Shown in pieces: positions 197-23,500 of a DNA stretch of 29,921 nucleotides. The stretch is taken from positions 1 to 29,921 of the IMG/VR virus record IMGVR_UViG_3300044611_000333. One strand, given 5' to 3'. The notes beneath the pieces were generated by a model that worked only from the letters and a program-made list of their open reading frames with translations, did no database searches and had not been told where the DNA came from. Source of the DNA: a virus. A program made the position numbers and the translations under genes. Position 1 is the first letter of the stretch; each line of letters begins with the position of its first letter.

Positions 197-532
197 ATGT
201 TAGAGAACATAGAAGCAATTACTAATTCGTTAGAATATCGTAGTAAGAAAGAAACTGCTAATACCAGCAGTAAACCTGGATTGTACTTTAAAGGTGCAAC
301 CTATAGAATATCACCTATGGTGTTTACACTGTCTTCCCGTGGATTTCCTCAGCTGACATTTCAGTATAAAGGAGAAATGCATACTGTTGCTGTTAAGCGA
401 TTGGTATGGATCCTAGTCAATGGCCAAGTACCAGCTGGTATGATGGTTCAGCAGCAAGGGAACAAGAGTAACTATCATATTGAACAGTTAAGGCTTATTC
501 CCTATGGAACAAGAACCAGCAGTGTACCGTAA
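197..532 (+). CDS. Degenerate HNH-like small protein
   Basis: The protein has 111 residues from ATG 197, chosen because GGAG (187-190) lies 6 bases upstream. TTG 167 and ATG 176 are in frame but lack a good ribosome site. The C-terminal half resembles the core of phage HNH homing endonucleases: VKRLVWILVNGQVPAGM, then QQQGNKSNYHIEQLRLI. An active enzyme would have H in VHRLV, NH before the DGN-like turn, and N in the third position. Here the first H is K and the NH pair is QQ. It therefore looks like an HNH fold that has lost its catalytic residues, perhaps kept as a DNA-binding protein next to the terminase genes. HNH proteins that support packaging are common beside terminases in HK97-type phages, but this one should not cut by that mechanism. 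The HNH relation is inferred from pattern only. Confidence 0.6.
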   Translation: MLENIEAITNSLEYRSKKETANTSSKPGLYFKGATYRISPMVFTLSSRGFPQLTFQYKGEMHTVAVKRLVWILVNGQVPAGMMVQQQGNKSNYHIEQLRLIPYGTRTSSVP

Positions 533-2933: not shown

Positions 2934-3150
2934 AGAGCCAGTAGTTGCACCCGTAGTACCCGTAGTTGAACCAGTGCTAACCCAGACAGTTACTGATGTA
3001 GTACCGTTTGCTGAGAATGAGCGTGCGCCTGCTGATTGGACGCTTGTACCTGTTGATGGTGGGGAAGATCTCTACCAAGCAACTCATCGTGTAACGCGTA
3101 AGGTATTTGTTGGTACTATTGGCAACTTTAACGTTGCTCTTCGGGGATAA
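2899..3150 (+). CDS. Small protein with C-terminal ADW domain
   Basis: This is an 83-residue protein from ATG 2899, which has AAGGAA (2889-2894) just upstream. After a proline- and valine-rich linker (VAPVVPVVEPV) it ends in a domain of about 39 residues, ADWTLVPVDG...FVGTIGNFNVAL. The same domain occurs at the N-terminus of the hydrolase at 4703-5986 and again at 6019-6146. A free copy of the domain next to the portal suggests that it is a virion-binding or self-associating module, and this protein could be a minor head decoration or adaptor component. That role is inference; I know no named family for the domain. Confidence 0.65.
   Translation: MTKSLAEVLSDKEPVVAPVVPVVEPVLTQTVTDVVPFAENERAPADWTLVPVDGGEDLYQATHRVTRKVFVGTIGNFNVALRG
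3031..3147 (+). repeat. ADW domain, copy 1
   Basis: This encodes 39 residues starting ADWTLVPVDGG and ending FVGTIGNFNVALRG. The pattern shared with copies 2 and 3 is ADW, a GG turn, an aromatic-poor strand, then F-x-GT-(I/L)-x-x-FN. It is the most divergent of the three copies. Confidence 0.7.
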
Positions 3151-3152
3151 TT

Positions 3153-4700
3153 ATGCTAGCAGCCCGTAAACGATCTGTTGAAGATCCATGTGCAGCCTAT
3201 GACAGCTTATTGGACATCTGGACTCGTTCACGAGCTGTTATTGGGGGTGAGCGCTATGTTAAGGCAGTTGATACTTTACCTTCTAGCTCTAACATGCTTC
3301 TTCCGTTCTCCCCATCGATGACACTTGAGCAATACAATTTCTATAAGGGTGAAGCTGAGCTCCCTGGTATTGTATCACAATTTGCTAAAATGATTGTTGG
3401 TGGTCTCTTGCGTAAAGAGCCTCAGATCACATTCACTGATCAAGTGCCAGAAGAAGCCCAAGATTGGCTACGTAATGCAGTAGCTATGGATGGTAACTCC
3501 TTAGTATCCTTCCTTGATGAAGCGTTGTATGAAGAAGTGCAGACTAGTAGAGCGTGGGTTTATGTAGATTACCCTATCGTTGACCCTACTGCTGCTTCTA
3601 ATATGACCCAACAAGAATGGCAGGATGTCAAACCTTACCCAGTCATCTGGAAGGCAGAGTCTGTTATTAATTGGCAGACTGCTATCAGTAATGGTAAACA
3701 TCAGCTATCACGGTTAGTTCTTCGTGGTACCACTGAGAAGTATGATGAAGAGAATATTCATCCTCGTCTTATCGATACTATCTGGGTCCATGAGCTGTCC
3801 CCTGAAGGTAATTATCAGATTCGCAGATTTGAAGCTAGCGAAGTACAGCAGAAGGCAGCCAATGGTGCTACTCCTACACCTAGTGGCAATCCTGGATTCC
3901 ACGTCGTAGAGACGATTGAGCCTAAATCGTTTGGACTATCCCTTAAGTTTATTCCTGCATGGCCACTGAATGGTAGTATTCAGGCATCAGAGCCTATGAT
4001 TACTCCGCTTGTTGACAAGGAAGTTGCCTTGTACAATAAGATGAGCAGACGTAATCATCTTCTTTATGGTGCTGCTACATATACCCCTTGGGTTTCTTCT
4101 GATATGATTCAGGAGGACTTTGAAGATATCGTTAGCGGTGGTCTAGGCTCATGGATTAAACTACGTGCAGGTGATGCTATTGGTGTACTGGCTACCCCTA
4201 CAGATGCGCTTAAAGATAGTGATAGAGCAATTGCTGCTGCTATTGATGAGATGGCTCGTATGGGTATTCGGATGCTTACCCCTGAGTCTGCCCAATCTGG
4301 TGTAGCGCTAGAGATAAGAAACGCTGCTCAAACAGCACAGCTAGGCACCCTTAATGTTAAGATTAGTGCTACTATCTCTGATGTGTTAGCTCATTTGACT
4401 AACCGTAGGTATAACTTGCAGCTAACACGAGCTGATATCCAATTTCATCTAAGCGCTGACTTTAGTCCTGTACCCCTTGGTGCTGATTGGTTACGTCTTG
4501 CTACTGAATGGTATGAGAAGGGTCTTATCCCACGCTCTACCTGGCTTGCGCTTATTAAGGCTAATGATCTCATTGAGCCTGACTATAATGATGAAGAAGC
4601 TACAAAAGAAATTAACGATGACGAGCTGATTATGCCAAAGGGTGATCCCTCTGACTCAGCAGATCCTAAGAAGTTAAATCCTAAGAAGTACGAGGAATAA
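3153..4700 (+). CDS. Portal protein, DUF4055 type
   Basis: The 515-residue portal forms the dodecameric ring at one capsid vertex through which DNA is packaged and ejected. The N-terminal pattern (YDSLLDIWTRSRAVIGGERYVKA, SMTLEQYNFYKGEAELPGIVSQFAKMIVGGLLRKEP) is typical of the DUF4055 portal family, as is the later MGIRMLTPESAQSGVALEIRNA segment near residue 370. The C-terminal 35 residues are acidic and lysine-rich and probably disordered. Its length is normal for the family. It begins 3 bases after the preceding stop and ends 3 bases before the next start, with the ribosome site GAGGAA of the next gene lying within its stop region. It should contact the MuF-RNAP head protein and the connector proteins encoded downstream. 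Confidence 0.9.
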   Translation: MLAARKRSVEDPCAAYDSLLDIWTRSRAVIGGERYVKAVDTLPSSSNMLLPFSPSMTLEQYNFYKGEAELPGIVSQFAKMIVGGLLRKEPQITFTDQVPEEAQDWLRNAVAMDGNSLVSFLDEALYEEVQTSRAWVYVDYPIVDPTAASNMTQQEWQDVKPYPVIWKAESVINWQTAISNGKHQLSRLVLRGTTEKYDEENIHPRLIDTIWVHELSPEGNYQIRRFEASEVQQKAANGATPTPSGNPGFHVVETIEPKSFGLSLKFIPAWPLNGSIQASEPMITPLVDKEVALYNKMSRRNHLLYGAATYTPWVSSDMIQEDFEDIVSGGLGSWIKLRAGDAIGVLATPTDALKDSDRAIAAAIDEMARMGIRMLTPESAQSGVALEIRNAAQTAQLGTLNVKISATISDVLAHLTNRRYNLQLTRADIQFHLSADFSPVPLGADWLRLATEWYEKGLIPRSTWLALIKANDLIEPDYNDEEATKEINDDELIMPKGDPSDSADPKKLNPKKYEE

Positions 4701-6018: not shown

Positions 6019-6177
6019 ATGGGCAGTAACTACACAGTAGCAGATTGGCAAATTAAGGATGCTGGTGGTGGTAATATTACTGCCTATAACCGCAGACTAA
6101 GGAGAAGTTCACTGGAACTCTCACACAGTTTAACACAAAGGCTAAAGGGGTCGCCCCTGTTGAGCCTCAGCCCGTAA
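6019..6177 (+). pseudogene. Frameshifted ADW-domain leader (copy 3)
   Basis: From ATG 6019, with the strong ribosome site AAAGGAATAATC, translation gives MGSNYTVADWQIKDAGGGNI and continues out of homology to a stop at 6175-6177 (52 residues). If one base is restored near 6090-6095, the other frame continues the domain as RQTKEKFTGTLTQFNTKA and runs into the hydrolase at 6177 without a stop. The two frames can meet only after the frame-0 stop TAA at 6087-6089. No slippery heptamer is present there (T AAC CGC), so a one-base deletion or a sequencing error is the simplest reading. The leader stop overlaps the next start as TAATG. Confidence 0.7.
6040..6146 (+). repeat. ADW domain, copy 3 (split by frameshift)
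   Basis: The first 17 residues (ADWQIKDAGGGNITAYN) read in the frame of ATG 6019. The rest (QTKEKFTGTLTQFNTKA) reads in the frame of the downstream hydrolase. Joined, they align with copies 1 and 2 across the whole domain. Confidence 0.7.
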
Positions 6178-7415
6178 TGTCACAAGTTAATCCTCTCACC
6201 GGGGGGGTTGAATTAACCGCAGGTGGCGTGCCGGTTTATGTGGGTGGATCGACTGTCAGAAAAAACGGAGTTGCCGCTTGGAGGCAAGGCGCTGGAATTC
6301 AGCAAACTAGCGCTGGCGGAGACAGAACCGCGCAACAGCAGATTCCTTATGATCGAAAATTCACCGGCGTACGGTTGGTTTATGCAAACTATTACCCAAG
6401 TGGTCCGGCAACACTGACCACCGTAAAGGTTGCCGTTGCCCCTATAGATGGAAGTAGTGGCAATACGCTAACGTGGACGCCTGTTACGTGGGCCGGGGCG
6501 GCATCAATAACACTGCCTGCGGCGGTAGGCAGCGCTAACAATTATGTTCCGTCTGTAGCATTCAGCGACTTTATCCCGATTACTGCCATATCAAGAACAG
6601 ACATACCTACCGCGCCTTATTTACTGCTTGTCCGAGGTTACGACGCCGCGCTTATTGTGGCCGGTGGCCCGGTAAATACTGCTGGTGCAGCGCAGTGGCT
6701 CGCCGATAGGGGCTATGTGTACCGTTACGGTGTTGCTGTTAGCGCGGGGGCTATTGTGGCTGACACAACGGCTATTACAACTGCCGCAACGTCAGGACTC
6801 GGTGTTATTAATGCCGTCGAGTTTTACGGGGCCGGCGATGCGCTTACATTCTACGTATTCGGCGATTCGCTAACTGCCGGCTACTCTGGCAATGCAGCGG
6901 GTTATCAGTCCGGTTGGCCGAACATGCTCGACTATATGTGGCGTACAAGCGGCAAAATTGGCGGGTGTGCGAATTGGGCGTGCGGTGGAATGACGCAGCA
7001 GAAATACATAGACACGATGAAGGCCGTATGCACAGCAAACGCTCCGTCAGCGGCTTATTTCTCCCCATACAGTCCAAATACAGGGTCGGCAACCCAAGCC
7101 ATTTGGGACTTGCAATACGCCATCGCAGCAGAAGCTATCGCATGGCTAATCGCACGAGGAATTCACCCTGTAATTTCTACTGCACTACCATCAGACTCGC
7201 TAAACGCCACACAGGACGGGTATAGAAAAGCATTTAATGCCAGACTAAAAGCGGATTACGCGCTAAATTGTACGGTTCTTGACCTTGCGCCGGTAGTTGA
7301 AGACCCGAATGATTCATCAAAGCAGCATCCTTTGATGAAATACGACAACGTTCACTTCAACGACGTGGGACACCAAGCGTGCGCCAATTATATCTACGCG
7401 AACCTCGCTTTCTAA
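6177..7415 (+). CDS. Second SGNH/GDSL hydrolase
   Basis: The 412-residue ORF starts at ATG 6177, which overlaps the leader stop (TAATG). No Shine-Dalgarno precedes it, so it is probably translated by coupling to the leader, or was once one gene starting at 6019. A beta-rich region (about residues 15-215) precedes the SGNH domain. Block I is YVFGDSLTAGYSG with S231, NWACGGMT may be block II (about residue 265), and block V is YDNVHFNDVGHQ with D390 and H393. The catalytic set is complete. The gene is visibly GC-richer than its neighbours: one sampled line, 6481-6540, is 38/60 G+C against 27/60 in the portal line 4441-4500. Its codons also differ, suggesting recent acquisition. Hydrolase 1 shares only the overall plan, so the two probably act on different esters. 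Confidence 0.85.
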   Translation: MSQVNPLTGGVELTAGGVPVYVGGSTVRKNGVAAWRQGAGIQQTSAGGDRTAQQQIPYDRKFTGVRLVYANYYPSGPATLTTVKVAVAPIDGSSGNTLTWTPVTWAGAASITLPAAVGSANNYVPSVAFSDFIPITAISRTDIPTAPYLLLVRGYDAALIVAGGPVNTAGAAQWLADRGYVYRYGVAVSAGAIVADTTAITTAATSGLGVINAVEFYGAGDALTFYVFGDSLTAGYSGNAAGYQSGWPNMLDYMWRTSGKIGGCANWACGGMTQQKYIDTMKAVCTANAPSAAYFSPYSPNTGSATQAIWDLQYAIAAEAIAWLIARGIHPVISTALPSDSLNATQDGYRKAFNARLKADYALNCTVLDLAPVVEDPNDSSKQHPLMKYDNVHFNDVGHQACANYIYANLAF

Positions 7416-7634: not shown

Positions 7635-10600
7635 ATGACTGAACAAAATGCTACAACTATTATTGGTGACCAGAAGATTGATCGCGCAGCTATGGTCAGG
7701 CTCTACACTGAACGATTAAATGGTAAAGTATCAACAATCATCGATGGACATGAGGTTAATCTAACTGCTGCTTTAAAACAGTTTAAATGGAACTCTACTA
7801 AACCCATTAATGATGCGGTGGATCTAGAACTACAGCGTATGATGCGTGAAGGATATAGGACTACTGCTGGTGAGCTAATCTCTTTTGGTCATGACACTAG
7901 TAATAACACTCATGGTATTTTGAGCAGAGGCTTTAAGGGATTCTTTGAGCCTGCTATTGTTCCCCGAAGTGTGTCAGCAGAGATTGTACTAAGTAAGCCC
8001 CTGATCAAGAATACGACCCTTGAATCAGGCTGGAATGGTGTTGTTAATGCAGAAAGGCTTAGAATTGAGCAGGCGATCCGTAAAGGCATAGCAGCAGGTT
8101 CAACCGAAGCCTCCATTATAGCAGATGTTCAAAAGACATTTGGGCTTACCCGTGTACAAGCATCAGGCTTAGTAGTAACAGCTACTACGAGTGTTTACGC
8201 TCAGGCAGATCATGCTGTTTACAAGGCTAATGAAAAGTTTTTGAAAGGATGGCAATATGTGGCTGTACTTGATAGCCGCACTACTCCTTTGTGCGCTCAT
8301 AGAGACGGTACTGTCTATCCGATATCAGATACAAGTCACCTTCCTCCAGCGCATTGGCATTGCCGTAGCACTACTATACCTGTTGTTAAGCGTTGGAGCG
8401 ACTTAGGTAACTTAGATAGCGTTGCAGCTACAAGAGCAAGGAATACTACAGGCCTTACTCCTGAGAAAATCAAGGAATATGATCTTGAAGCATTTAAGTA
8501 CTTTGATGGTAATGCTTTCGAGAAGGTCAGTTACAATGACTGGCTACTCAGACAACCTACCGATATTCAGCTTAGGCATCTAGGTGATTATACCAAGGTA
8601 AAGATGTTTCAGAATGGAGAATTAACAGTTGACAAATTCGTTACTCCGAAGGGTTCAAGCTTGGGTCTTCGAGACCTCAGAGAAGCTACCGGCGACCTTG
8701 CCGGAGGCTACAACGGTTCAGTGGAAGGCACAAGTAGGGTCTTCATCAACGCAAAAGAGCGACTTGATGCTATTAGGCTCGGATACACCACACCTGAAGA
8801 GATTGTATCAAGCGTAGAAGCCCGTAATGCACTCTTAGAGTATTACAAGCTCCAGTCAGGTGAATTAAATGGTACCCTATCAGTTACAAACTATCGAGGG
8901 ATTCTACCACATGTTAAGAAGGCCACCAAGAGTCGCGTTCTTAATACACCGCCTACTGATGAGCAACTACTCTTCAACCCTCTTACTAAACGGAGAGAGG
9001 ATAGCCGTCTCTATCAGCCTAATAAAGCTGTTAATGAACGTGCTATTTCGCTTGTTTCTAAGAGTGAAGTTCTAACTGATTCAGACAAGCAATTTATTCT
9101 AGGCTTCAAGGATGAGATTGCTAAATCTGTTGGCATCAATGAAGCTGCTGTAGTTACTGATAACCTTCGAGTAAGCTTTGAGCGCTTTCGTAGAAATGGT
9201 GAGCCTTGGGGTAATCTTAAAGCTGTGCTTAACTCTCAGATGAAGCATGATGTTACTAACGTGTCAGAGTATATTGAGACTCAGCTTAGGAATAACTCAG
9301 ACTTCTTCTATAAACTTAAGCAGGATGCATTTCTTGACCCTGTACTTGGACCTATTCAAATTGAGGATCTAGCTAATAATTTCCACAAGAATATTGCAGC
9401 TAAGAACCTCTGGGAAGAGAAGGTTGCCCCTAAGATTGGTAGAGAGTTACGCCCATATCTTGATAGGGATATTCCACCTAAGCTGTGGGTGCGCCTAGAG
9501 GATAAGGATCTTGAGGAGTTCTATAATAGGTTTGCAATGAGGCTGGCGGCTGATGATGCTCCTGATCGTGATCAGGTTGCTATTGGTCTTGGCCGTGATC
9601 TGCATAATCTTGCGAACTATCGAGGTACTAAGCAAGAGTGGTATGACCTAGGAGTTAAGCTTCTAGATCGTGCTAAGGATAAGGGATTCTACGAGCTTGA
9701 AACATTTGGAGTAAAGAAACGTAGAATGCGTAGTAGAATGTCTGGTCAATATTTTGGTCAGTATTATGATACATTCAGTGTAAATCTAAAGATTACAGAT
9801 CAGCGTATCAAAGAGTACTCTTGGCTTAACCGTGCAGTAGATGTGGGTTATCGCATAGGTGTGAATGATACGTTTGATAATGCTCTTAAGGTTAGGCCAG
9901 GTTTCAAGACATACTTTGGAAAATGGAATTATGATACACGTATCCCTATTACCTCTACTAGCAGCTTCTCCAACTTTCCAGCCGAGTTTGTCGACGATAA
10001 CCTTGCAGACGCTCTTAACTGGGCTAGTTCTACTAAGTACAAGATCGACCCTGATATGCATGACTTTGTCGAGAAACTGCTACTCTTTGCAGACGACAAA
10101 GGTAATGCAAAGCACTACGATACACTAAATCACTATCGTAAGTACATCGCCGCTAGAGGTGATGCTTATGAGCGATTCAAAATGATGAAGTATTATCGTG
10201 GCAAGGACATGGAGTTTGGAAGCCATTCCTTTGTTGATCATCGAGGTCGTATCTATGATAGCGGATTCATTAGTCCACAATCAGGTGAAACGTTCCGTCC
10301 ATTCTTAAGTACTGCTGAGTCTAAAGTACTTGGCCAGGAAGGATACGAGAACTTTCAAGATCAAGTAGGCTCCTTCCTAGGTGGCCTTTCAGATCAGTTT
10401 GAGGGTAGATACAATGGGCTAAGCAATACTGGTAGGCAGAAGATTGCGGTTAAGTGGAGGCCTGAGCTTGTTAAGCTTGGCAATCACATTATTCGCGCTA
10501 AGCCTAACGATATTCGTAGCGTACTAGAGATGCCATTTGTGCAGATGGTAGAAGGTGAGGAACAGGGTAAGTTGTTTAGGTTAGCCGTAGAAGCAGCTAA

Positions 10601-10883
10601 GATTGACAAACATCTTCTAGGCAACTATAGCGATTTGAGCCGACTTCAGTCGTACAAAACCGCGTTAGCCCTGGAACAAGATGCATCCTCCTCTGGTGCT
10701 CAGATCATTGCATTGACTACTAAGAACAAACAGCTTGCTGAGCTTAGTAATGTAGTACCTACACATCAGAAGCGTCGATTGTACGATGAGATTGCATCTG
10801 CCACATTCCAAGATCCTAGATTTAAGAAGCTCAATGAGCGCTTAGGTCTAACTGAAAAGGATCTTAGAAAAGCAGCAAAGGCT
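7635..10883 (+). CDS. MuF head protein fused to single-subunit RNA polymerase, exon 1
   Basis: Exon 1 encodes residues 1-1083 of a 1506-residue protein. Residues about 100-255 are a MuF-type minor head domain ending in the family signature: D213-SRTTPLC220, then LPPAHWHCRSTTIP with P238, H240 and C243. The second half is a T7/N4-type RNA polymerase. It has the DxxGR motif at D868 (VDHRGRIYDSGFISPQSG, compare T7 DWRGRVYAVSMFNPQG), motif A with the metal ligand D1016 (ALEQDASSSGAQ, compare T7 VDGSCSGIQ), and the start of motif B with R1078 and K1082. Residues 260-860 are mainly helical, as in the N-terminal region of such polymerases. MuF proteins are a few copies per head near the portal, so the polymerase is probably packaged. 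The exon boundary after GCT (10881-10883) comes from P1 pairing and protein alignment. If unspliced, translation ends at TAA 10908-10910, before motifs B and C. Confidence 0.9.
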
Positions 10884-11094
10884 CAACTGGGTCTTTTAAA
10901 ATTGGGTTAATTGCTGGGACATCCCTCGTTAGGGGACAATCAGCAGCCAAGCTTATCCAGGAATGGATTTGAAGGTTCAACGACTAGAGCATACCTTCTA
11001 GAACAGAAGATGAAGCTCATACACTCAAGTGAGTGGAAACGCCCAACACCGTGAGGTGAAGATATAGTCTGATCTATATGGTAACATATAGGAG

Positions 11095-11799
11095 TGCTAC
11101 CGAGCACATGTGAGGTATTAAAATGGAACAATGGAAGCAGATTGAATCAATAAATTATGCGATCAGTAACCACGGTAGCGTATACAGTAATGTAAGTCAA
11201 AGATTTTTAAAGCCATACCCGAATAGGCAAGGCTATCTGGTAGTTGATCTAAGGCGTGGAAATCAACGTTATATGATTTCTGTGCATCGGTTAGTAGCTC
11301 TTAGCTTTATTCAAAATCCTGGCAATAAACCTGAAGTAAATCATGATGATGGTAACAAACAAAACAATTATTATAAGAATTTACTTTGGGCTACTAAGCG
11401 TGAAAATATTCAGCATGCTTATGATACCGGATTAAACCCTAATGGCTCTGGTAAACCTAATGCTAAGCTGCATGAAACTGATATCTTGTCAATCAGAGAA
11501 CTTATGCTGATAGGTGTAAGCAACCAGATAATCGCAAATATGTATAGGGTTTCCAGCGGCACTATTAGTGCGCTAAGGCTTGGGCATACTTGGAAACATA
11601 TTTTTGGTGATGCATTGCTACGATCTGGACCTAACCCAATTAAAAAGTTACAGCCAGAGGATATCCCTGTAATACGTGAGATGTTCTTAAAAGGACTTCG
11701 AGACTGTGACATTGGAGCAGTATATAATGTTGCAAGAGGCACTATAAACCAAATTCGTCAAGGTAAAACTTGGATTAATTATTAACAAACTCGGTAGCA
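11095..11799. repeat. 10-bp stem enclosing the intron ORF
   Basis: TGCTACCGAG (11095-11104) and CTCGGTAGCA (11790-11799) are perfect inverted complements lying 18 bases before and 5 bases after the endonuclease gene. They close the ORF-containing loop, so the reading frame can sit there without disturbing the ribozyme core. Confidence 0.85.
11123..11785 (+). CDS. HNH homing endonuclease of the intron
   Basis: This 220-residue protein spreads the intron by cutting the intronless RNA polymerase gene. The NUMOD4-like start (WKQIESINYAISNHGSVYS) is followed by an I-HmuI-type HNH core: H55 in SVHRLVALSFI, N73-H74 in EVNHDDGNKQNN, N81/N82, then NLLWATKRENIQHA. Two tandem helix-turn-helix repeats follow (about 113-159 and 173-219), each with KL..x..DI..IRE......G...I..(M/V)Y.V..GTI..(L/I)R.G.TW. 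These should read the target site. GAGG (11112-11115) lies 7 bases before the ATG. All HNH residues are kept, unlike in the related-looking protein at 197-532. Confidence 0.93.
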   Translation: MEQWKQIESINYAISNHGSVYSNVSQRFLKPYPNRQGYLVVDLRRGNQRYMISVHRLVALSFIQNPGNKPEVNHDDGNKQNNYYKNLLWATKRENIQHAYDTGLNPNGSGKPNAKLHETDILSIRELMLIGVSNQIIANMYRVSSGTISALRLGHTWKHIFGDALLRSGPNPIKKLQPEDIPVIREMFLKGLRDCDIGAVYNVARGTINQIRQGKTWINY

Positions 11800-11834
11800 C
11801 CGGTGGATACTAACGACATCCGCTAAACATAATG

Positions 11835-13106
11835 CATAACATGGTGACCTTCTATGGCGCAGGCATGCGTACTGCAGTGCTTAACGTTGAGAACAAACTA
11901 TCTAAGATTCTAGGTAAGCAAGCTAATGTGCTAGTTGTAAGAGCCTCCGAGCGTAATGAAGTACTTGCCCAAATATCAGCTAGGGCTGCTAAAGTTCAAC
12001 GTTGGGATCCAGAGTCTGCTGATGAACTAATGCAGCTACGCAAGCAGGTTAAGGAGATCTTCGATAAAGGTCTTAATCCTGGTGATGAGCTAATGGAACA
12101 GATGTGGTTCCTTGACCCTAAGTCTAGAGATGTTGTTGAGAAGCTTACTAGGCAGTATGCCGAGGTTGTTACTCCTAACGACTTTGCAGTCATTGGTAAG
12201 CTTATGTCAGAGCACATGGAAGCCCAAGTTCCAATACTAGGAGACTTCACCAGATTCTTTGGTAGGTTGGCTGAAGACTATTTAGTTAATGCTAAGCCAC
12301 CTTCCACATCACTTAAACGTGGTGTTGATTGGGACTGGCAGCAAGCTATCAAGGAAGAGACCATTGGGGAGCGCAAGAAAAACCCGCCTAAGCTATTTAA
12401 TAGATTACCTGGGTATAACCCTAATGACCCTTGGGTAGACGTTGTATTTGGTATTAAGGATCGTAAATATCCTAAGAAGTGGACCCAAATACCCTGGGTC
12501 AACTTTGATGGTAAGGTTCTTGAGCAGTATTATACCCAACGCTTTGAAGAGAAGCTTGTATATAAGACTGCAGATGGTACTTGGATTACTAACATTATCC
12601 AGGTTGATCAGAAGACTGACCCTTCGTGGCTTGATGAAATTAAGAATAAGAGTGGGCAGATTAATGACGTTGCTGATGCCACAGGTGCTAGGACTGCATT
12701 TGCAGTTAATGGCAACCATAGTAATGACGCAACACTTGTTAAGAATTTCCACTTGTGGGGCAAGAAGAATAATGTGGGTACCTCTACCATTCATGACGCC
12801 TTCTTCTCCAACGCCGCTGATATGATCAATGCTAAATCTGCCCTACGAGTTATGTACGCAGATGCAGTAGATAGACAATCAGTCAAGCAAACATTAGATT
12901 TGATGAGGTCTAGGGGCTTACCAAAAGATTTATACGATAAGTACTTAGCCGAAGCAATAGCTAAGGGTATCATTCCTGTGGCTGGAAAGAGCCGAGTAGG
13001 TGGTAAGCTACTTACTGAGGAAGATATTCTTAAAAGAAGTGATATAACAAAACCGATACCAATAGGCTTCAAAGATGATCTTGGATTCTACGGGTTAGGT
13101 GGGTAA
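11835..13106 (+). CDS. MuF-RNA polymerase fusion, exon 2
   Basis: Exon 2 encodes residues 1084-1506. It completes motif B as RKAAK-A-HNMVTFYG, giving R1078, K1082 and Y1090. The spacing is the same as T7 R627/K631/Y639 and N4 R666/K670/Y678. Near residues 1377-1404 NHSNDATLVKNFH and then TSTIHDAFF match T7 VHSQDGSHLRKTV and LIHDSFG. D1404 is the second metal ligand (motif C) and H1403 its partner. The end, FKDDLGFYGLGG, parallels the short aromatic C-terminus of the family. An ATG at 11832 could start a separate ORF, but it is inside the intron end, has no ribosome site, and would begin in the middle of motif B. This is therefore an exon, not a gene of its own. Confidence 0.9.
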   Translation, partial: HNMVTFYGAGMRTAVLNVENKLSKILGKQANVLVVRASERNEVLAQISARAAKVQRWDPESADELMQLRKQVKEIFDKGLNPGDELMEQMWFLDPKSRDVVEKLTRQYAEVVTPNDFAVIGKLMSEHMEAQVPILGDFTRFFGRLAEDYLVNAKPPSTSLKRGVDWDWQQAIKEETIGERKKNPPKLFNRLPGYNPNDPWVDVVFGIKDRKYPKKWTQIPWVNFDGKVLEQYYTQRFEEKLVYKTADGTWITNIIQVDQKTDPSWLDEIKNKSGQINDVADATGARTAFAVNGNHSNDATLVKNFHLWGKKNNVGTSTIHDAFFSNAADMINAKSALRVMYADAVDRQSVKQTLDLMRSRGLPKDLYDKYLAEAIAKGIIPVAGKSRVGGKLLTEEDILKRSDITKPIPIGFKDDLGFYGLGG

Positions 13107-13160: not shown

Positions 13161-13874
13161 ATGACGCTAGAAGAACAAGCTGCTGCCGATTTGGCTGCAA
13201 AAGAACAAGCTGCCAAGGAAGCTGCTGAGAAAGAAGCTGCCGATAAGCTTAAGAATACTAAGCCTGACGACGCTGATATGGTCGCTAAGCTAGTTGCTGA
13301 AAAAGTTGAAGAGCAGCTTAAGGATATCAAGAGCAAGCTTGATGCCTCTTACAAAGCTAGGGACGAAGCCGCTAAGCGTGCCGAAGCCTTGGAAAAGAAA
13401 GAGCGTGAGGCTCAACTTAAACTGCTAGATGAATCTGGCAAGCATAAGGAAGCTTTTGACCTTCGGATTGCTGAAGCTAATGCCAAGCATGAAGAACTTA
13501 TGAGCAAGATTGCTTCTTTGGAGCAAGGCAACCTCGAACTTACACGTGATGCACAGATTCGCGACCTGTTGCGTACACAAGAGTTTCGTAATGATACTGC
13601 TGCTGAAATGGCCTTTAAGGATATCTCTAATCAACTCGTTCGTAACGAGCAGGGGGTCTGGGTTCATCGGTCAGGGATCAGTATTAAAGACTTTGTCACT
13701 GCTTTTATTAGTGATGAAGAGAAATCATTTCTATTCAAGGCTAAGGAATCTTCTGGTATGGGTGGTAAACCTCCAGGTGGTCCTAACCAATCAAATAACA
13801 ATTCTCTGTTTGCAAAATCGCAAGCAGAAGTGCTCAAACTTGCTATGGAAGGCAAGCTACCGGCACGCCGCTAA
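13161..13874 (+). CDS. Capsid scaffolding protein
   Basis: The 237-residue protein is strongly charged and helical. Residues 1-130 are an alanine-, lysine- and glutamate-rich coiled coil (EEQAAADLAAKEQAAKEAAEKEAADK onward). A linker rich in glycine, proline and asparagine follows at about 200-215 (MGGKPPGGPNQSNNN), then a short basic C-terminal helix ending KLPARR. This is the architecture of phage scaffolds, which bind the inner face of capsid protein during prohead assembly, often through a basic C-terminal helix. Its place directly before the major capsid gene, and after the MuF protein, supports the call. GGAG sits 8 bases before the ATG. No protease domain is visible, so scaffold removal may be by exit or by an enzyme elsewhere. 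Confidence 0.87.
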   Translation: MTLEEQAAADLAAKEQAAKEAAEKEAADKLKNTKPDDADMVAKLVAEKVEEQLKDIKSKLDASYKARDEAAKRAEALEKKEREAQLKLLDESGKHKEAFDLRIAEANAKHEELMSKIASLEQGNLELTRDAQIRDLLRTQEFRNDTAAEMAFKDISNQLVRNEQGVWVHRSGISIKDFVTAFISDEEKSFLFKAKESSGMGGKPPGGPNQSNNNSLFAKSQAEVLKLAMEGKLPARR

Positions 13875-13883
13875 GGAAATTAA

Positions 13884-15068
13884 ATGACTATTCGTACCAA
13901 CGTTACAGGCGCTACTGAATACGCCCTGCAATCGGCTATCAGCGCCTATTCTAACGAAGCTTACACCAATGCCAAGAAAATCTCTGGCACTGGTATCGTT
14001 TCCTCTAATCCTGACATTGATGTCAACACTGAGACTTTTATTGGTCAAATGCGCTGGCGTAAGCCGTTGGATGCTAAGATCAACATCGCATCCCTGACGG
14101 ACTCCTCTGAAGGTACTAAGACCGTCGTTAGTTCTGATTACGCTACCTATATCAAATCTGTGCGTACGCATGGCGCTGAGAAGGTAAATATGCAGCAAAT
14201 CGTTTCGAAAGAAGACGGCCTTGCTCAAATCGGTACCGACTTTGCTGAAACCCGCGCACAAGACGAGCATAACGCTCTGTTGGCTGTTTGTAAGGGTGTT
14301 GCTGTTGCTGAAATGCTTAACGGTGCTGCTACTGGTTCTGGTGCTACTGGCCTCGGTGGTCAATCGTTTGATAATGACCCTGCTGATAAGAAGTATGGCT
14401 TCTACGTTGACCTGGGTGCTAACGCTCCGGTTATTGCTGCCTCTACCTCTGTTCAAGGTGCTGCTCGTGCTGAGAACTTCCTGAAAGCTCTGGCCATGGG
14501 TTATAAGGATTACGAGCCGGAATATGCTTACTTGGCAACTTCACCTGAAGTAATGATGTCCCTTCGCTCTGCCAATATGGTTGACGAAGATCGCGTTACC
14601 GAAGCTAACGTTGAATTCCAGACGATTCTTGGTGGTAAGTTCCGCCTGATCTCTACTCGCGCTGCTCAGGGTCTGACTGGTGCTCAGCTAACCAAGATTA
14701 ACACCGGTGCTGGTGTTGATATCGTTGGTGTGAAGACCTCCTTCATCATCCTTCCTGGCTCTATTGCTTTCCAAGGTCTGGAAGTTCCTGATGAAGTTGA
14801 AATCACTCGTAACGGCAGCTCTTACAAGGGTGGCGGCTCTACCAACATCTGGTATCGTTGGGGCTATGTTGCTCATCCGCAGGGTTACACCTGGAATGGT
14901 TCGCAAGAGAAGTTCGCTTCTGATGCTGATTACCAAGCTGTTGGTGATACCTCTGAAACTCAGGGCTTGTTGACCGCTGCTACCATTGGTACCTCTACCC
15001 GTGGTGCTTGGGTTCGTAAGGCTTCCTCTGCCTTGTCGCTGGGTATCCTGCCGGTGTTCCACGCCTAA
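13884..15068 (+). CDS. Major capsid protein
   Basis: The 394-residue shell protein presumably has the HK97 fold. It follows the scaffold by 9 bases with the ribosome site AAGGAA. Visible pieces are the N-arm (MTIRTNVTGATEYALQSAIS), a region like the E-loop (IGQMRWRKPLDAKINIASLTDSSEGTKTVVSSDYATYIKSVRTHG, about 52-96), a long spine-helix segment (AQIGTDFAETRAQDEHNALLAVCKGVAV) and late beta strands (GVKTSFIILPGSIAFQGLEVPDEVEITRNG). Codon use is strikingly different from its neighbours, favouring CTG, CGT, GGT and TCT with few CTA or AGG codons, as expected for the most abundant phage protein. No N-terminal prodomain is apparent. Confidence 0.9.
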   Translation: MTIRTNVTGATEYALQSAISAYSNEAYTNAKKISGTGIVSSNPDIDVNTETFIGQMRWRKPLDAKINIASLTDSSEGTKTVVSSDYATYIKSVRTHGAEKVNMQQIVSKEDGLAQIGTDFAETRAQDEHNALLAVCKGVAVAEMLNGAATGSGATGLGGQSFDNDPADKKYGFYVDLGANAPVIAASTSVQGAARAENFLKALAMGYKDYEPEYAYLATSPEVMMSLRSANMVDEDRVTEANVEFQTILGGKFRLISTRAAQGLTGAQLTKINTGAGVDIVGVKTSFIILPGSIAFQGLEVPDEVEITRNGSSYKGGGSTNIWYRWGYVAHPQGYTWNGSQEKFASDADYQAVGDTSETQGLLTAATIGTSTRGAWVRKASSALSLGILPVFHA

Positions 15069-18142: not shown

Positions 18143-21100
18143 ATGGCAGTAGCAGTTCAAGTAGTTTCAGACTCCAGAGCGGCGCAACAGGATATTGCGA
18201 AGTTAAGAAGCTCTGTAGAGGGTATCAGTCAGGCTACTAAGAATGCTACTGATACATTTAAGTCTCTGGCCCTAAGTTTAGGGGCGCTTGCTACATCTAC
18301 ATTTGGCGCGGTGGGGCTAGTTCGCTTATCGGATACGCTTACCACAGTAAATTCTAAACTTTTAGTTGTTCTAGAAACTCAAAATGCAGTAAACGCAGCT
18401 TTTAAGGCGAGTACTGATATCGCGCTTAGCACTAGAACTAGCTTGACGGATGTCGCTTCTCTGTACTCTAGAATCGCTATGTCCTCTAAAAGCTTGGGTG
18501 CATCTCAGAACCAAATTGCTAAAGTTACAAGTAGTATTAGCAAGGCTATCTCTGCCTCAGGGTCTACTGCGCAAGAATCTAGTGCAGCCGTAATGCAACT
18601 CGGGCAAGCATTAGCGTCTGGTAGGCTTCAGGGCGATGAGCTTAGGTCAATCCTAGAGAATGCCCCGTTACTTGCGCAACAGATTGCTGAAGGTCTAGGT
18701 AAGACTGTTTCTGAGATGAGAGATCTCGGTACAGCGGGAAAGCTTACGTCTAGGGATGTATTTGGAGCTATCCTTAAGCAAACAGATCAGATAAATAAAA
18801 TGTCTGGCAACATTGGTATCACATTCTCCTCTGCATTCACCAATGTAGGGAACGCACTAAGCATCATGTATGCTGGATTCACCAAGTATCTCGACGAAGA
18901 ATCAAAATTCTCTTCTGGCAAGACAATCGCAGCTAGAATTAACGACGCAGCCTTATCAGTTGCTAAGCTTGGTATGGATTTTAGACAGCTAACTATAGAT
19001 ATAAAGGCCGGTATTTGGTCTGTAGTTTTAGATGCGGAACAAGGTTTCCAAAGAGTTAGCAAGCAAGTGCAAGGTATTTACTCTGGGGTTGCAAAAGATG
19101 TTAGTAAAAGCGCATCCACAGTTGGTGATACAATAGCTGCACAGTTATCTAATGTTAGCATAAAGGGACTCTCGTTTAAGCTAGATACTACAAAGATTAA
19201 TATAGGTCAGTTCTTTCCTAACCTAGAATCGATTAGGCGCACTGTAATTGATTGGGTAACCACAATTGAGCGCGCATTCTTCTGGCTTTATGATCAAGTA
19301 ATTGGACACTCCTGGATTCCAGACCTAGTTGACGGAGTAATCTTCTGGATGCGTAAGCTTATGGGGGATCCGCTAGGTACAGCCTTATCCTTCACCAAGC
19401 GAGTAGGTGATGCATTTGAATCACTAACTGCTAGGGTTATGAAGGGAGACTTCGCAGCTGTGATTGCCGCACAACTTGCAGAAGCAAAAGCAGCTATTGA
19501 TCGCACTAAATTTGCTCGTAATATCAGGCAGACCCTTGGTATGCAAGAGGTGCAGCCAGGCTCCTACGCGGATCGATCAAGCAGAACTGGGCAGTCTAGC
19601 TATACTACTGATACATACGTAGGTAGAGGTCCTCTGCGGGATCAGAAAAATCGTACTCCATTACATGATATCACTAACGCGTTTAAATCAGAGAACCAAT
19701 CCCCATTCTTAGCCACAGTATTCACTGCAGTAGGTGCTGGACTACTGATGGCAGTCAGTTCCGGTAGCGTTATTAAGGGTATTGCAGTAGCTTTTGCTGC
19801 AGGTATTGGGACAGCTGTATTAGGAAGCTATAATAACCTCCTTCCAGTAGGTATTTTCATTGGTGGTGGTATCATAGCAGCCCTTACCGGTGGCTCAGCG
19901 GCTAAGGCAATTGCAGCTGTTGTAACAACTGCCTTTGGTCTAGTATCAGCCAAGGTGATATCTGATAAAGAGCTTTCTCTAACCACCGGAAGCATTGTTA
20001 ACGCATTTTTAAATGGCGTTAAGGGTGCTATCAATATGCTATTTGGTTCAGGCCTGTTTGGTGAGAAAGGGTTTTTAGGTACTCTATCATTACTGGCTAA
20101 ATTAGCCTTGATGTTCGCTAAGGGTCGAGAAATTATTGGTAACGCCGCTCTAGCTGTAGCTAAGTCACCTACATCTATCGTGGATAACCTATCAGACCGC
20201 GTTTTGCTACGCTCAGCTAATAAGGAGCTACTCAAGAATACTGCTGCTGCTGCAATGGTAACCACTAAGTCCCAGGCAGCCACAGCACAGGCTCAAGCTG
20301 CAATGGCAATGGCTAAGCAGAAGCTGAATAGTGCTACCAACGCTAACTCGTTTAATACCGCAGCTGCTCAAATGGCTAGGGCTCAAAAGCTTGTTTCGGC
20401 CTCTCAAGCGCTAGCAGCAGCAGCTCCAGCAGATATCGCTAGGCTTTCAGCTGAAAGAGAGAAGCTAGCACAAAACCAGAAAACTCTTGCAGATAGGATT
20501 GATGCAACCTCTAAGAGGTTTAGAGAGGGTGTTATGGCTGGTGGAGCAGGTATCGGTGCTATTTTCGGTACTATGGCTGGCTTTGAGATTGGTAACAAAA
20601 TAGCAGAGCAGATGACTAGCTACTCTGGGTGGGCTAAGGCTGGAGTTCAGATGGCAGGCGCCTTTATTGGTCAAGGTATAGGTGCTGCTATAGGAACTGT
20701 AGCTGGTGCAGGTATTCTTCAGGTGCTCTCGGCTTTACCAGCTATTTTAGCTGCACTCGGAATAGGCGCTCTTATATGGGCCGGTATGAACTGGGAATCA
20801 GTTTACGCCAACCTAAAAGATGTGTGGAAGGAAGTTGAGCCTGTATTTGCCAAAGCTTGGGTACAATTAACAGCAGTGCTTGATGGTTTTATAGGTAAGC
20901 TAATTGTTAGTCTCAAATCACTGGTACCTAACCTATCAAACAGAGTAGGTAATGTTGTATCAAATACAGAAGTTGGCAAAGATGGTCAAATTAACCCGTT
21001 CTCACTAGTATCTAACATTGCTAAGGAGGTAGTAGGCCTACGTTCTGATTTAGGTACAGGTACTATCGGTAATAAGTCTATAGTAACTGGTGCCTCCTTT

Positions 21101-23500
21101 GCTAGTGATCCGTTTATTGCAGGGCAGGTGGCCGCAGCTCAAGCCTCTGTTTCTGATGCCGATAGAAAGACTAATCTAGCGGCTTGGAACAAGATATCGT
21201 CATTCTTTGATCAGCCTATCTCCAAGATTCTAGAGTCAATCACTTCAACAATTTTTGGTGTTAAGGATGCTGGGGCAGCAGAGAGCGCAAAGGTAGTAGG
21301 TGCAATAGAAGCTACCAACAAAGCTACGAGAGCTGATATCGTAGTTCCTCCATCCGAAGATACATTGGCCCGGCTAGTGGCCGCTATAAAACGCACTGAA
21401 GGTACTAGCGAAGGTGTTACAAGCTTCAAGGGTGCTTCCGGTGTTATGCAAATAATACCTGATACATTTAACAGTGTAGTAGCTCAGCATAAATTAGTGG
21501 GTAAGTCGTTTGATAGCGCTTCTGACCGCATAGAGGTAGCTACAAGGCACATAGCTGACTTATGGGCTAAGTATCAAGATCCTGCTAAGGTATTTGCAGT
21601 GTATAACGGTGGTCCAAAGGCTGTTGCTGCTAACGGTGATTTAGTATCTAGACACACCATGAAAGATGGTAAATCTATAGATGATTCTTCTAGCTATGCC
21701 AAGAGAGCCTTGAAGGTATTTGAGGGCGCTGGTGGAGAAAGCACCGGAACTAAAGTAGGTAAAGCCATAGCAGGAAAACTCAATCTAGCTTCTAACGAGT
21801 TTGCAAAGTTTAAGGATAATCCAGCTGATTATATCGAGGCAACTTTAGTTGCTATGGGGCTTAAATCCCCGATGCTTGAAGGGCCCCCTGCCCCAACTCA
21901 GGAAGAAAAACTTAGGCCTAAACTACTTAGCGCTAAGCTAGAAGGGTTATACTCCGCAGAAAAATCTTTAGAAGAAATAAATACTGCAATTGGTAGTATT
22001 AATGCTAAAGCTCTTGATCTTGCTCAGTATAAGGCTATTCCTAAGGACGAGCTAGAAGTTATTGTAAGAAATTTTGATAACATTGCGAAGTTTAATGATG
22101 CTCTACTAGGTAATCTGAGTGATTTCACTAGACGTGGTACTGAAGAGAAGCTTAAGGAACTTGCTACTCAGAACAAAAAGCTGTTAGCTGAAGCTACTAA
22201 AAAGCTGGCCCCAGACCAAGCTCTTGAATTGGTTGCGTCTGCCGATGCGTCTAAGGCCGGCACAGACTACGCAACCAAAGTTAGGGATGATTTTTCTTCA
22301 GCTTTAGGTGCAGGGCTAAGCGGTGATTCCAAGCCTCTAAAGGATTTTGCTAAAAACTTTGCAGATACATTCACTAAATCAATTCTTAACTCTTTTGCCA
22401 AGGGCATAACTGATACCTTCTTTAAAACATCGGGTCTAGAGGAGCTGTTAGGTGGCTTGATCAAAGGTTCAATGTTTAGCGGTGAGAAGGCTGGTACTAC
22501 TGGAGGCACAGGAGTTAGTAAATTAATAGCTGGTGGTATAAATAAACTCAGCTCCTTACCCACAGCATTCAAATATGGTACTAATGCTGGGTCTACCCAA
22601 ACTGATATTCTAAAATCTCAAGATGCAGCTTTTTCAGAGCCTATATTAGATATTATCTCTTCGTCAGGTGAATTAACAGTAGACGCAATTGGATCAGCCA
22701 GTCAAGATAATGCCTCTACAATTGTATCAGGTTTAGGTGGAGTGTTTACCAAGAGCTTCCAAGATATGGGAATGACACTCAATAGTGCATTTTTAGGAAT
22801 CCAGGGTGCTATGGGATTCGGTGCATTTAGCGGTGGCGGTGGAGGTGGTGGGTTTGATGCCTTTGGTACTATCCTTAAAGTCGCTGGGCTAGCTATGTCA
22901 GCCTATGGTGGCGCAGGAGTCACTGATGCCGCAGGCGCTACCGTTGGCTCTAACCTTGGAGCAGGTGTAGGTCAGAACCTAACATTTGATTCTATTAACA
23001 TGAGCAGCGCTTCATTCAACGTTGGATCTGCTGATGTTGGGGTGTCTGGAAACATGTTCAGCTCTGCATCATCTAATACAATTGATATGGGCGGTGGCAG
23101 TGGGTTGAGGTTTGCTACTGGTGGATTAATTAGAGGTCCAGGCACAGGCACCTCTGATTCTATACCTATCATGGCATCCAACCGCGAGTTCATGGTTAAT
23201 GCTAAGCAAACTGCCAAGTTTAGACCCCTGCTGGAAGCAATTAATAGCGGCAGCATTTCTAAGTTTGCAACTGGTGGGTTTATCTCAAATGATATCGGAA
23301 GCAACGTTGTGGTTCAAGCTGCAACCAAGCGTAATCAAGAGATGGGTCTAGTCCCTGGGGGTAATAAGAACACCTCAGTGTTTAACATCAATGTAACTGG
23401 GGATGTTAGTCGCCAGACTAGGAAGGAAATCCAACAGATGATGCCAACCATCGCTGTTGGGGTGAACAATCATAACCATGAGAATGGTATGAAACGATAA
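18143..23500 (+). CDS. Tape measure protein with lytic transglycosylase domain
   Basis: The 1785-residue protein sets tail length; at about 1.5 angstrom per residue the tail would be near 260 nm. Residues 70-200 carry the conserved tape-measure N-terminal region (VASLYSRIAMSSKSLG, GQALASGRLQGDELRSILENAPLLAQQIAEGLG). Hydrophobic glycine- and alanine-rich stretches at about 523-583 and 833-881 could insert in the host membrane during ejection. Residues about 1075-1200 are a lysozyme-like transglycosylase with E1086 (AIKRTEGT), ASGVMQIIPDTF and VFAVYNGGPKAV (Y1154). Coiled-coil segments and a glycine-rich stretch follow. The C-terminus has the gpH-type repeats FATGGLIRGPGTGTSDSIPIM and FATGGF. 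The domain should open peptidoglycan for DNA entry. Start ATG 18143 follows GGGAG and lies 3 bases after the previous gene. Confidence 0.95.
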   Translation: MAVAVQVVSDSRAAQQDIAKLRSSVEGISQATKNATDTFKSLALSLGALATSTFGAVGLVRLSDTLTTVNSKLLVVLETQNAVNAAFKASTDIALSTRTSLTDVASLYSRIAMSSKSLGASQNQIAKVTSSISKAISASGSTAQESSAAVMQLGQALASGRLQGDELRSILENAPLLAQQIAEGLGKTVSEMRDLGTAGKLTSRDVFGAILKQTDQINKMSGNIGITFSSAFTNVGNALSIMYAGFTKYLDEESKFSSGKTIAARINDAALSVAKLGMDFRQLTIDIKAGIWSVVLDAEQGFQRVSKQVQGIYSGVAKDVSKSASTVGDTIAAQLSNVSIKGLSFKLDTTKINIGQFFPNLESIRRTVIDWVTTIERAFFWLYDQVIGHSWIPDLVDGVIFWMRKLMGDPLGTALSFTKRVGDAFESLTARVMKGDFAAVIAAQLAEAKAAIDRTKFARNIRQTLGMQEVQPGSYADRSSRTGQSSYTTDTYVGRGPLRDQKNRTPLHDITNAFKSENQSPFLATVFTAVGAGLLMAVSSGSVIKGIAVAFAAGIGTAVLGSYNNLLPVGIFIGGGIIAALTGGSAAKAIAAVVTTAFGLVSAKVISDKELSLTTGSIVNAFLNGVKGAINMLFGSGLFGEKGFLGTLSLLAKLALMFAKGREIIGNAALAVAKSPTSIVDNLSDRVLLRSANKELLKNTAAAAMVTTKSQAATAQAQAAMAMAKQKLNSATNANSFNTAAAQMARAQKLVSASQALAAAAPADIARLSAEREKLAQNQKTLADRIDATSKRFREGVMAGGAGIGAIFGTMAGFEIGNKIAEQMTSYSGWAKAGVQMAGAFIGQGIGAAIGTVAGAGILQVLSALPAILAALGIGALIWAGMNWESVYANLKDVWKEVEPVFAKAWVQLTAVLDGFIGKLIVSLKSLVPNLSNRVGNVVSNTEVGKDGQINPFSLVSNIAKEVVGLRSDLGTGTIGNKSIVTGASFASDPFIAGQVAAAQASVSDADRKTNLAAWNKISSFFDQPISKILESITSTIFGVKDAGAAESAKVVGAIEATNKATRADIVVPPSEDTLARLVAAIKRTEGTSEGVTSFKGASGVMQIIPDTFNSVVAQHKLVGKSFDSASDRIEVATRHIADLWAKYQDPAKVFAVYNGGPKAVAANGDLVSRHTMKDGKSIDDSSSYAKRALKVFEGAGGESTGTKVGKAIAGKLNLASNEFAKFKDNPADYIEATLVAMGLKSPMLEGPPAPTQEEKLRPKLLSAKLEGLYSAEKSLEEINTAIGSINAKALDLAQYKAIPKDELEVIVRNFDNIAKFNDALLGNLSDFTRRGTEEKLKELATQNKKLLAEATKKLAPDQALELVASADASKAGTDYATKVRDDFSSALGAGLSGDSKPLKDFAKNFADTFTKSILNSFAKGITDTFFKTSGLEELLGGLIKGSMFSGEKAGTTGGTGVSKLIAGGINKLSSLPTAFKYGTNAGSTQTDILKSQDAAFSEPILDIISSSGELTVDAIGSASQDNASTIVSGLGGVFTKSFQDMGMTLNSAFLGIQGAMGFGAFSGGGGGGGFDAFGTILKVAGLAMSAYGGAGVTDAAGATVGSNLGAGVGQNLTFDSINMSSASFNVGSADVGVSGNMFSSASSNTIDMGGGSGLRFATGGLIRGPGTGTSDSIPIMASNREFMVNAKQTAKFRPLLEAINSGSISKFATGGFISNDIGSNVVVQAATKRNQEMGLVPGGNKNTSVFNINVTGDVSRQTRKEIQQMMPTIAVGVNNHNHENGMKR

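Follow-up and report, generated by a model that had tools for sequence, protein, structure and literature searches.

A MuF head protein fused to a T7-type RNA polymerase in long-tailed phages, a probable ejected virion polymerase

The window analysed here is the complete IMG/VR virus record IMGVR_UViG_3300044611_000333, a fragment of 29,921 bases. It carries a gene in which a MuF minor head domain is joined to a single-subunit RNA polymerase, and which is interrupted in polymerase motif B by a group I intron. In the raw sequence the gene appears as two open reading frames (ORFs), 7635-10910 and 11832-13106, with an HNH ORF at 11123-11785 in between. The initial annotation, made from the letters of the window, had assigned the whole span 7635-13106 to the fusion; both exons do lie inside it, and 951 of its bases are intron. 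The parts of the gene are the following:

7635..10883, + strand: first exon of the fusion gene (MuF-RNA polymerase), encoding residues 1-1083; as a raw ORF it continues into the intron as far as 10910
8064..8378, + strand: MuF domain, residues 144-248 (Pfam PF04233; signature D213, C220, H240, C243)
10236..10250, + strand: DxxGR motif, D868-R872
10680..10682, + strand: catalytic Asp of motif A, D1016, invariant in 54 of 54 proteins
10866..10883, + strand: 5' part of motif B (R1078...K1082)
10884..11834, + strand: group I intron inside motif B (RF00028; P1 pairing, terminal G, intron-less relatives)
11123..11785, + strand: HNH endonuclease ORF within the intron (NUMOD4, HNH_3)
11835..13106, + strand: exon 2, residues 1084-1506 plus stop, with the remainder of motif B and motif C
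11835..11858, + strand: 3' part of motif B (HNMVTFYG, Y1090)
12792..12797, + strand: motif C, H1403-D1404, invariant in 54 of 54 proteins

The intron is readily apparent from an Rfam match to RF00028 at 10844-11091 (88.2 bits, E 1.7e-21; gathering threshold 50). The 5' splice site is placed after 10883 and the intron end at G11834, because a P1 pairing with the usual U.G at the splice site can be read from the sequence (AAAGGCU/..GGUCUUU, the slash marking the site) and because of the terminal G. Splicing at these positions is predicted to yield 1506 residues, with the junction reading RKAAKAHNMVTFYGAG; at the same columns the intron-less gene of phage DSS3_VP1 reads AKGAKAANMVTFYGAG. This spliced protein of 1506 residues had been proposed in the initial annotation, and the 13 residues checked from its list (13/13) were found at their positions.

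At the N-terminus, Phage_Mu_F (PF04233) is matched with E 7.7e-16 and 59.3 bits (cut-off 29.6). For the polymerase part, RNA_pol (PF00940) is matched in exon 2 at E 2.9e-5 and 23.5 bits (cut-off 22) and in exon 1 at E 0.019 and 14.3 bits, below the cut-off; counted jointly, the two stretches reach 35.5 bits. PHROG 414, 'RNA polymerase', matches at E 9.4e-12 and 5.4e-6, and PHROG 2166, 'N4-like RNA polymerase', matches exon 1 weakly (E 1.3e-4). In the PDB, a profile built from three sequences (A1) reaches T7 RNA polymerase (RNAP) at E 1.8e-6, with alignments that cover DxxGR, motif A and motif C. The virion RNA polymerase (vRNAP) of N4 was not matched in the PDB by this profile (E up to 10) or by a deeper one of 41 sequences (A2, E up to 1), and N4 RNAPII (6dt7) gave weak profile matches, E 0.5 and 0.15. 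Pfam scans at E 0.01 of 32 relatives and the window protein returned MuF and RNA_pol only, with DUF5610 also in one member. As a separate observation, positions 326-460 of profile A2, ahead of the motif-bearing core, match the archaeal regulator PH1932 (1uly_A, E 2.7e-4); this match, left uninterpreted here, scores better than T7 RNAP does with the same profile.

The fold was assessed on an AlphaFold model of a relative, residues 349-1493 of L022 built with 41 sequences, rather than on the window protein itself; the model has a predicted local distance difference test (pLDDT) score of 79.6 and a predicted template modelling (pTM) score of 0.75. In VIA-align comparisons it superposes on T7 RNAP (1s76_D) with Z 29.8 and a root mean square deviation (rmsd) of 3.2 over 522 aligned residues spanning T7 positions 31-883, on POLRMT (7pzp_A) with Z 28.1 and on the N4 mini-vRNAP (3c46_A) with Z 21.9; the first 216 residues of the model (L022 349-564) are barely covered by the fold comparisons. 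Foldseek returns mitochondrial and T7 polymerases at E about 1e-18, with whole-model TM scores of 0.35-0.42 and a large rmsd, so that the VIA-align comparison is the more informative one. In BFVD, its top match is A0A7S5FRK7 (1463 residues, TMq 0.78), which judging from its length is probably a DSS3 phage protein, followed by T7-like and N4-type polymerases. From these matches, the polymerase part is read as a complete enzyme of the T7/POLRMT type, to which the N4 vRNAP is a more distant relation. Membership of the N4 type is rejected because of the size (1506 vs about 3,500 residues) and the fold of the relative (Z 21.9 vs 29.8). The structure comparison suggested in the initial annotation thus finds a polymerase fold in the relative, with T7 nearest; of the 'T7/N4-type' assignment, the T7/POLRMT part stands by fold and PDB sequence matches, while the N4 vRNAP part is dropped.

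The fusion is not confined to the window. When both ORFs were compared by tblastn with 50,697 phage records, four records from three phages passed a coverage threshold of 80% of either ORF: EBPR siphovirus 1 (ESV1), DSS3_VP1 (two records) and DSS3_PM1. DSS3_VP1 has Ruegeria pomeroyi DSS-3 as its host. The two DSS3 phages, which we take to be isolates, carry annotations such as head morphogenesis or minor head protein-like; gp108 of DSS3_VP1 is a single gene of 1463 residues annotated 'head morphogenesis', and in DSS3_PM1 the two ORF matches lie 61 bases apart, the same spacing as in VP1. The ESV1 version is split into pieces labelled 'head protein', 'HNH endonuclease' and 'hypothetical protein' (gp47/gp49). 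A scan of IMG/VR gave at least 524 relatives, counted as contig stretches, from which 80 loci were kept for analysis. The contig end cuts 28 of these 80 on the 5' side; where the 5' end is present, 51 of 52 loci encode the fusion without interruption, in a single ORF of about 1490-1580 residues. The remaining one, L051, shows a frame break near residue 470, at which two frames overlap and the sequences adjoin, and this looks like an indel error. A prophage origin was considered and rejected: a search of genome contigs with 37 pattern stretches yielded two loci, both in a single Gammaproteobacteria metagenome-assembled genome and one of them on a contig of 74,179 bases, equal in length to G011, with no sign of lysogeny.

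Conservation was followed in a set of 54 proteins, made up of the 51 unbroken IMG/VR members, the window protein, ESV1 and VP1 (44 below 90% identity; pairwise 30-84%). The MuF residues D213, C220, H240 and C243 are invariant in 54/54, as are D868, R870, R872, D1016, K1082, N1085, M1086, V1087, Y1090, G1091, H1403 and D1404 of the polymerase; R1078 is kept in 51/54. Two details of the motifs as first described have to be corrected. H242, given as part of the MuF signature, occurs in 19/54 and is not conserved, and in DxxGR, of which D868 and R872 hold throughout, position 871 is Ala in 47/54 and Gly in five (window included). Phage_Mu_F and RNA_pol were each detected in 32/32 full-length members scanned (E 0.01 or better). 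Domain matches, invariant catalytic residues and the fold of the relative collectively bear out the central proposal that a MuF domain and a complete single-subunit RNA polymerase are combined in one protein.

The polymerase part is further distinguished by its loss of cysteine. The window protein has two cysteines, both within the MuF signature, and none in the polymerase part, defined for this count as everything beyond residue 360. Across the 44 proteins this part contains one Cys in 52,591 residues, with none in 43/44; L018, a relative outside the 44, has one. In contrast, nine unbroken free-standing T7-like polymerases encoded by these same phages have 7-10 Cys each in 732-764 residues, and two further ones, split by insertions, show 10 and 7 when their two main pieces are counted. 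At the rate of the free polymerases, 12.8 Cys would be expected in the polymerase part, with a probability of 3e-6 for none. The ORFs bearing TMP_3 (n=11) contain 0 Cys in 31,879 residues, and the window tape measure 0 in 1,785. A count over nine genomes gave 64 Cys in 5,754 residues for the free polymerases (8 phages, one only up to its intron), 0.94 per 100 residues for other ORFs over 300 residues, 0.52 per 100 for the ORF in the portal's place (whose identity as portal was not confirmed in every genome) and 0.14 per 100 for scaffold plus major head protein.

Proteins from well-studied phages served as controls. T7 ejects gp15, gp16, gp14 and gp6.7, and the first two together contain 0 Cys in 2,065 residues. 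The non-virion polymerases have many: 12 in the 883 residues of T7 gp1 and 13 in the 673 of N4 gp15 + gp16. Cysteine is also absent from the N4 gp50 vRNAP (0/3,500), ejected according to the accessible part of PMC4496689, and from P22 gp7, gp20 and gp16 (0/1,309), given as ejected proteins in the available text of PMC8402733; the absence of cysteine was used earlier as one mark of a virion polymerase, as far as the consulted sections of PMC10747016 describe. P23-45 was tried as a cysteine test and found uninformative, since this phage is cysteine-poor elsewhere too (gp64, portal and major head protein, 0). The loss seen in the fusion proteins may be read as an adaptation to unfolding, passage through the oxidising periplasm and refolding, and such a purge may serve as a general sequence test for ejected proteins.

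A second polymerase and two classes of promoter-like motifs accompany the fusion. PF00940 was searched in 17 records, namely VP1, ESV1 and the 15 records longer than 30 kb that contain loci from the set of 80. A free-standing polymerase besides the fusion is present in 11/17: DSS3_VP1 and every IMG/VR record with a length of at least 49.8 kb (10/10); none was found by this search in five fragments of 34-41 kb. Coding is biased to one strand, with 86-99% of crudely called ORFs in seven IMG/VR genomes. The early motif, TTGCGnAAAAAnGGTATCTTATATGA, was derived from six genomes, in which 15 sites were used, and was then found in four genomes outside the training set (G012, G003, G008 and G010). Each of the ten IMG/VR genomes has 2-4 forward sites over 14 bits, and a single reverse site was seen (15.2 bits, G003). 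Because shuffled sequences scored up to 16.3 bits, the weakest G012 site (14.3 bits) counts for little. In 10/10 genomes the site nearest to the free polymerase gene is on its coding strand, at a distance of 1034-3182 bases upstream (2115, 1591 and 2127 bases in three of them), and scores 20 to 46 bits.

The late motif, ACCCCGTTAAATTAACCC, was sought with 3 or fewer mismatches in 13 sequences (ten IMG/VR genomes, ESV1, VP1 and the window), giving 49 forward and 2 reverse sites; ESV1 has 3, VP1 and the window 0. A site follows the fusion gene in 9/10 IMG/VR genomes (not G013), at most 10 bases from the last codon in six of them and at most 750 in the other three. The motif holds a short inverted repeat, GTTA-AAT-TAAC (G001, G002, G009-G012, G014 and others). 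DSS3_VP1 has a T7-promoter-like family of its own, TAATAGGTTACGTTAAAGAGGGGGA, with 10 forward and 0 reverse sites at 6 or fewer mismatches; a second, early-type motif was not found in this phage. The sites are:

2240, 2331, 6578, 7406, 19235, 19324, 29394, 45924, 55096 and 59194 of DSS3_VP1, forward strand: TAATAGGTTACGTTAAAGAGGGGGA sites

The simplest scheme suggested by this arrangement would run from the ejected fusion polymerase to the early motif, from there to the free polymerase, and then to the late motif.

Cysteine loss, the presence of a second polymerase and the motif upstream of that polymerase point indirectly to carriage in the virion and to ejection. We consider it probable that the fusion is a portal-anchored virion polymerase that is ejected with the DNA and starts a two-polymerase cascade. 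In such a mechanism, self-splicing of the group I intron would allow a gene of the head module to yield a single protein of 1506 residues, whose N-terminal MuF domain would place it at the portal during head assembly, while the C-terminal 1100-odd residues would form an active T7/POLRMT-type RNA polymerase. Packed in the virion, the protein would leave through the tail together with the DNA in an unfolded state, from which the loss of cysteine would follow. Once in the cell, the polymerase would refold and transcribe the earliest genes from an early promoter dedicated to this purpose. Among these genes, in the larger relatives, would be that of the second, ordinary T7-like RNA polymerase, which would read the later promoters. 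For the broader proposition, the case is about evenly balanced: that widespread long-tailed phages eject a MuF-anchored T7-type polymerase via the tail, which reads the early promoter TTGCGnAAAAAnGGTATCTTATATGA and so leads to the second polymerase and to ACCCCGTTAAATTAACCC promoters, as a further design beside the N4 and tape-measure ones.

Several points weigh against this interpretation. The genes are related by descent, and the family counts are not independent. Scaffold and major head protein are also cysteine-poor; at their rate about 1.6 Cys would be expected in 1150 residues, with P(0) of 0.2 for one protein, so that the cysteine argument rests on the whole family and on the contrast with the free polymerases. 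The ejected T7 gp14 and gp6.7 have one Cys each. The deeper profile A2 reaches T7 RNAP at E 0.011 only, and a structure of the MuF half was set aside, its model having pLDDT 67.5, pTM 0.39 and no PDB match at E 0.001 or better. In ESV1 (54.5 kb), the closest named relative, no second polymerase was detected by the PF00940 search, and the early motif was not found in ESV1, DSS3_VP1 or the window. The early motif can also be read in part as a sigma-70 -10 box, one of the three G011 sites being scored by a consensus scan (22 sites in 8 kb of G011 vs 17.9 by chance, standard deviation 4.7), and it might be read by the host enzyme.

This last point leads to the strongest of the alternatives, in which the ejected virion polymerase has a mainly mechanical role: its transcription would pull the genome in, and host RNA polymerase would start the early genes. 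Genome entry in T7 uses transcription, and the G011 site that also fits the sigma-70 consensus suits this explanation. A coupling of translocation and transcription is likewise proposed by the P23-45 authors in the part of PMC10770324 consulted. The early motif, on the other hand, forms one block with fixed spacing; beyond TATCTTATATGA it has conserved TGCG and AAA columns that lie outside the place of a -35 box. A mainly mechanical role is rated unlikely, and it is not mutually exclusive with the proposed start of a cascade.

Slightly less likely again is an action of the polymerase half in the producing cell only, in late transcription or packaging, without ejection. The fusion is a head-module gene, and in six genomes a late-motif site follows within 10 bases, as such a role would suggest. 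These phages, however, have a separate free T7-like polymerase in 11/17 records, and a cytoplasmic enzyme needs no purge of cysteine; the free enzymes show none.

It is improbable that the chain is cut after the MuF domain and that the MuF part alone is retained in the virion. Head proteins are often processed, the frame of one locus (L051) is broken near residue 470, and PHROG 595, 'head maturation protease', matches the protein. That match covers the MuF stretch only (residues 143-256), and no separate protease gene was found among the 23 window ORFs scanned; the L051 break looks like an indel error, and the cysteine loss sits in the polymerase half. Least probable is a polymerase fold kept as an inactive structural or DNA-binding part, which would fit how weakly the sequence as a whole resembles T7 RNAP (in the PDB, E 1.8e-6 for the 3-sequence profile and 0.011 for that of 41) and the Ala in place of the Gly of DxxGR in 47/54, but is opposed by the invariance of D1016, D1404, K1082, Y1090, H1403 and R872 in 54/54.

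The proposed ejected polymerase resembles, and differs from, several known systems. According to the portions of PMC10770324 available, the Thermus siphovirus P23-45 is a long-tailed phage whose gp96 is a polymerase fused to a virion protein, a second, non-virion polymerase (gp64) is encoded, there are two dissimilar promoter classes of which that of the virion polymerase is AT-rich, and the order of ejected polymerase, early genes, second polymerase and late genes is reported. In that phage, a two-barrel polymerase sits on the tape measure, as demonstrated by experiment, whereas here a T7-type polymerase sits on a MuF head protein. N4 gp50 and the Schitoviridae share with the fusion the single-subunit polymerase superfamily and the lack of cysteine. 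In N4, as far as the accessible text of PMC4496689 goes, the second polymerase is made from early genes, the same order is reported for its first two classes, and the promoters are hairpins; gp50 also differs in its length of 3,500 residues, in having N- and C-terminal regions peculiar to it and in carrying an MPTase domain (PMC5512222, in part). T7 RNA polymerase and POLRMT share fold and catalytic residues with the polymerase part but are not virion proteins, and T7 gp1 has 12 cysteines.

MuF fusion proteins, including phage Mu gp30 and SPP1 gp7, likewise combine the MuF domain with an enzyme and have genes near the portal; the enzymes listed in the part consulted of PMC5512222, the survey in which such a fusion would most be expected, are PBECR RNases, 2H, RelA/SpoT, PRTase and a zeta-toxin-like kinase, with no polymerase named there. 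The word polymerase is absent from the MuF-toxin paper PMC5576092, and polymerase terms gave no match in PMC12697855 and PMC13037479. No published MuF-polymerase fusion was recognised by title and abstract opening, subscription literature lying mostly outside the search. The same protein as that of the window is held by ESV1 (gp47/gp49), DSS3_VP1 (gp108) and DSS3_PM1 (homologue), with the difference that the VP1 gene has no intron and the ESV1 intron is another one, at another site. As far as found, carrier and polymerase type are both new for the role of virion polymerase.

Few phage groups are known to have virion polymerases, and the available part of PMC12633501 describes their passage through the tail as an open question. 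A separate design, occurring in at least 524 IMG/VR contig stretches and in the DSS3 phages, would be open to testing now, and the two motif classes are ready templates for in vitro transcription. The dU-DNA (deoxyuridine-containing DNA) of DSS3_VP1, reported in the accessible part of PMC12697855, sharpens the question of the first transcriber. If the proposed mechanism is true, the virus brings its own gene-reading enzyme into the cell along with its DNA.

In the window, the fusion gene lies in the head module, with the portal side upstream and the scaffold and major head protein downstream. The context genes are:

3153..4700, + strand: portal protein (phrog_145, E 2.4e-59)
13161..13874, + strand: head scaffolding protein (phrog_206, E 2.1e-9)
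13884..15068, + strand: major head protein (phrog_247, E 2.2e-16)
18143..23500, + strand: tape measure protein of 1785 residues, used for comparison (TMP_3, E 6.2e-51)

The order runs from terminase and portal through two SGNH-hydrolase-like genes to the fusion gene, scaffold, major head protein and connectors; further genes encode the major tail protein, tape measure, distal tail protein and a lambda-J-like fibre. In DSS3_VP1 the order is portal, tRNA and fusion gene. The long-tailed phage proposed initially is consistent with this lambda-like long-tail module, and by gene content the window virus is assigned to the siphoviruses, because the scan of 23 window ORFs revealed no sheath. TMP_3 was found in 16/17 records searched, which suggests long tails and leaves the tail type undecided.

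Introns recur in the polymerase genes of these phages. The ESV1 intron (L001:23186-24035) matches RF00028 with 40.5 bits, below gathering (E 1.3e-8), and is inserted 10 bases from the site of the window intron, both in motif B. BLASTP found no significant similarity between the HNH proteins of the two introns (E 46), and the introns are regarded as having inserted separately. In G013 a group I intron (L137:1141-1337, 63.6 bits) interrupts motif B of the free polymerase, and the free polymerase of G003 likewise breaks off in this motif. Four polymerase genes are thus interrupted at codons of motif B, and three of the interruptions match a group I intron (one of them below gathering); the motif appears to be a hot spot for homing. 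Outside the polymerase genes, DSS3_VP1 has a group I intron match (L002:3639-3855, 93.9 bits) between pieces annotated terminase large subunit, with an endonuclease gene adjoining, and an HNH-endonuclease-like ORF also lies at the left end of the window (167-532; phrog_1891, E 3.7e-5).

Two proteins between portal and MuF (4703-5986 and 6177-7415) contain the motifs GDSLSAG and GDSLTAG. They gave no PHROG match at E 0.01 and are presumably SGNH-hydrolase-like, a label taken from the motif only. A short module, ADWxIxDAGGGNI...GTIxQFN, is repeated in three neighbouring genes between terminase and fusion (3030-3150, 4703-4830 and 6019-6178), and the copy at 6019 stands in a different frame from the SGNH-like gene at 6177, suggestive of a frameshift.

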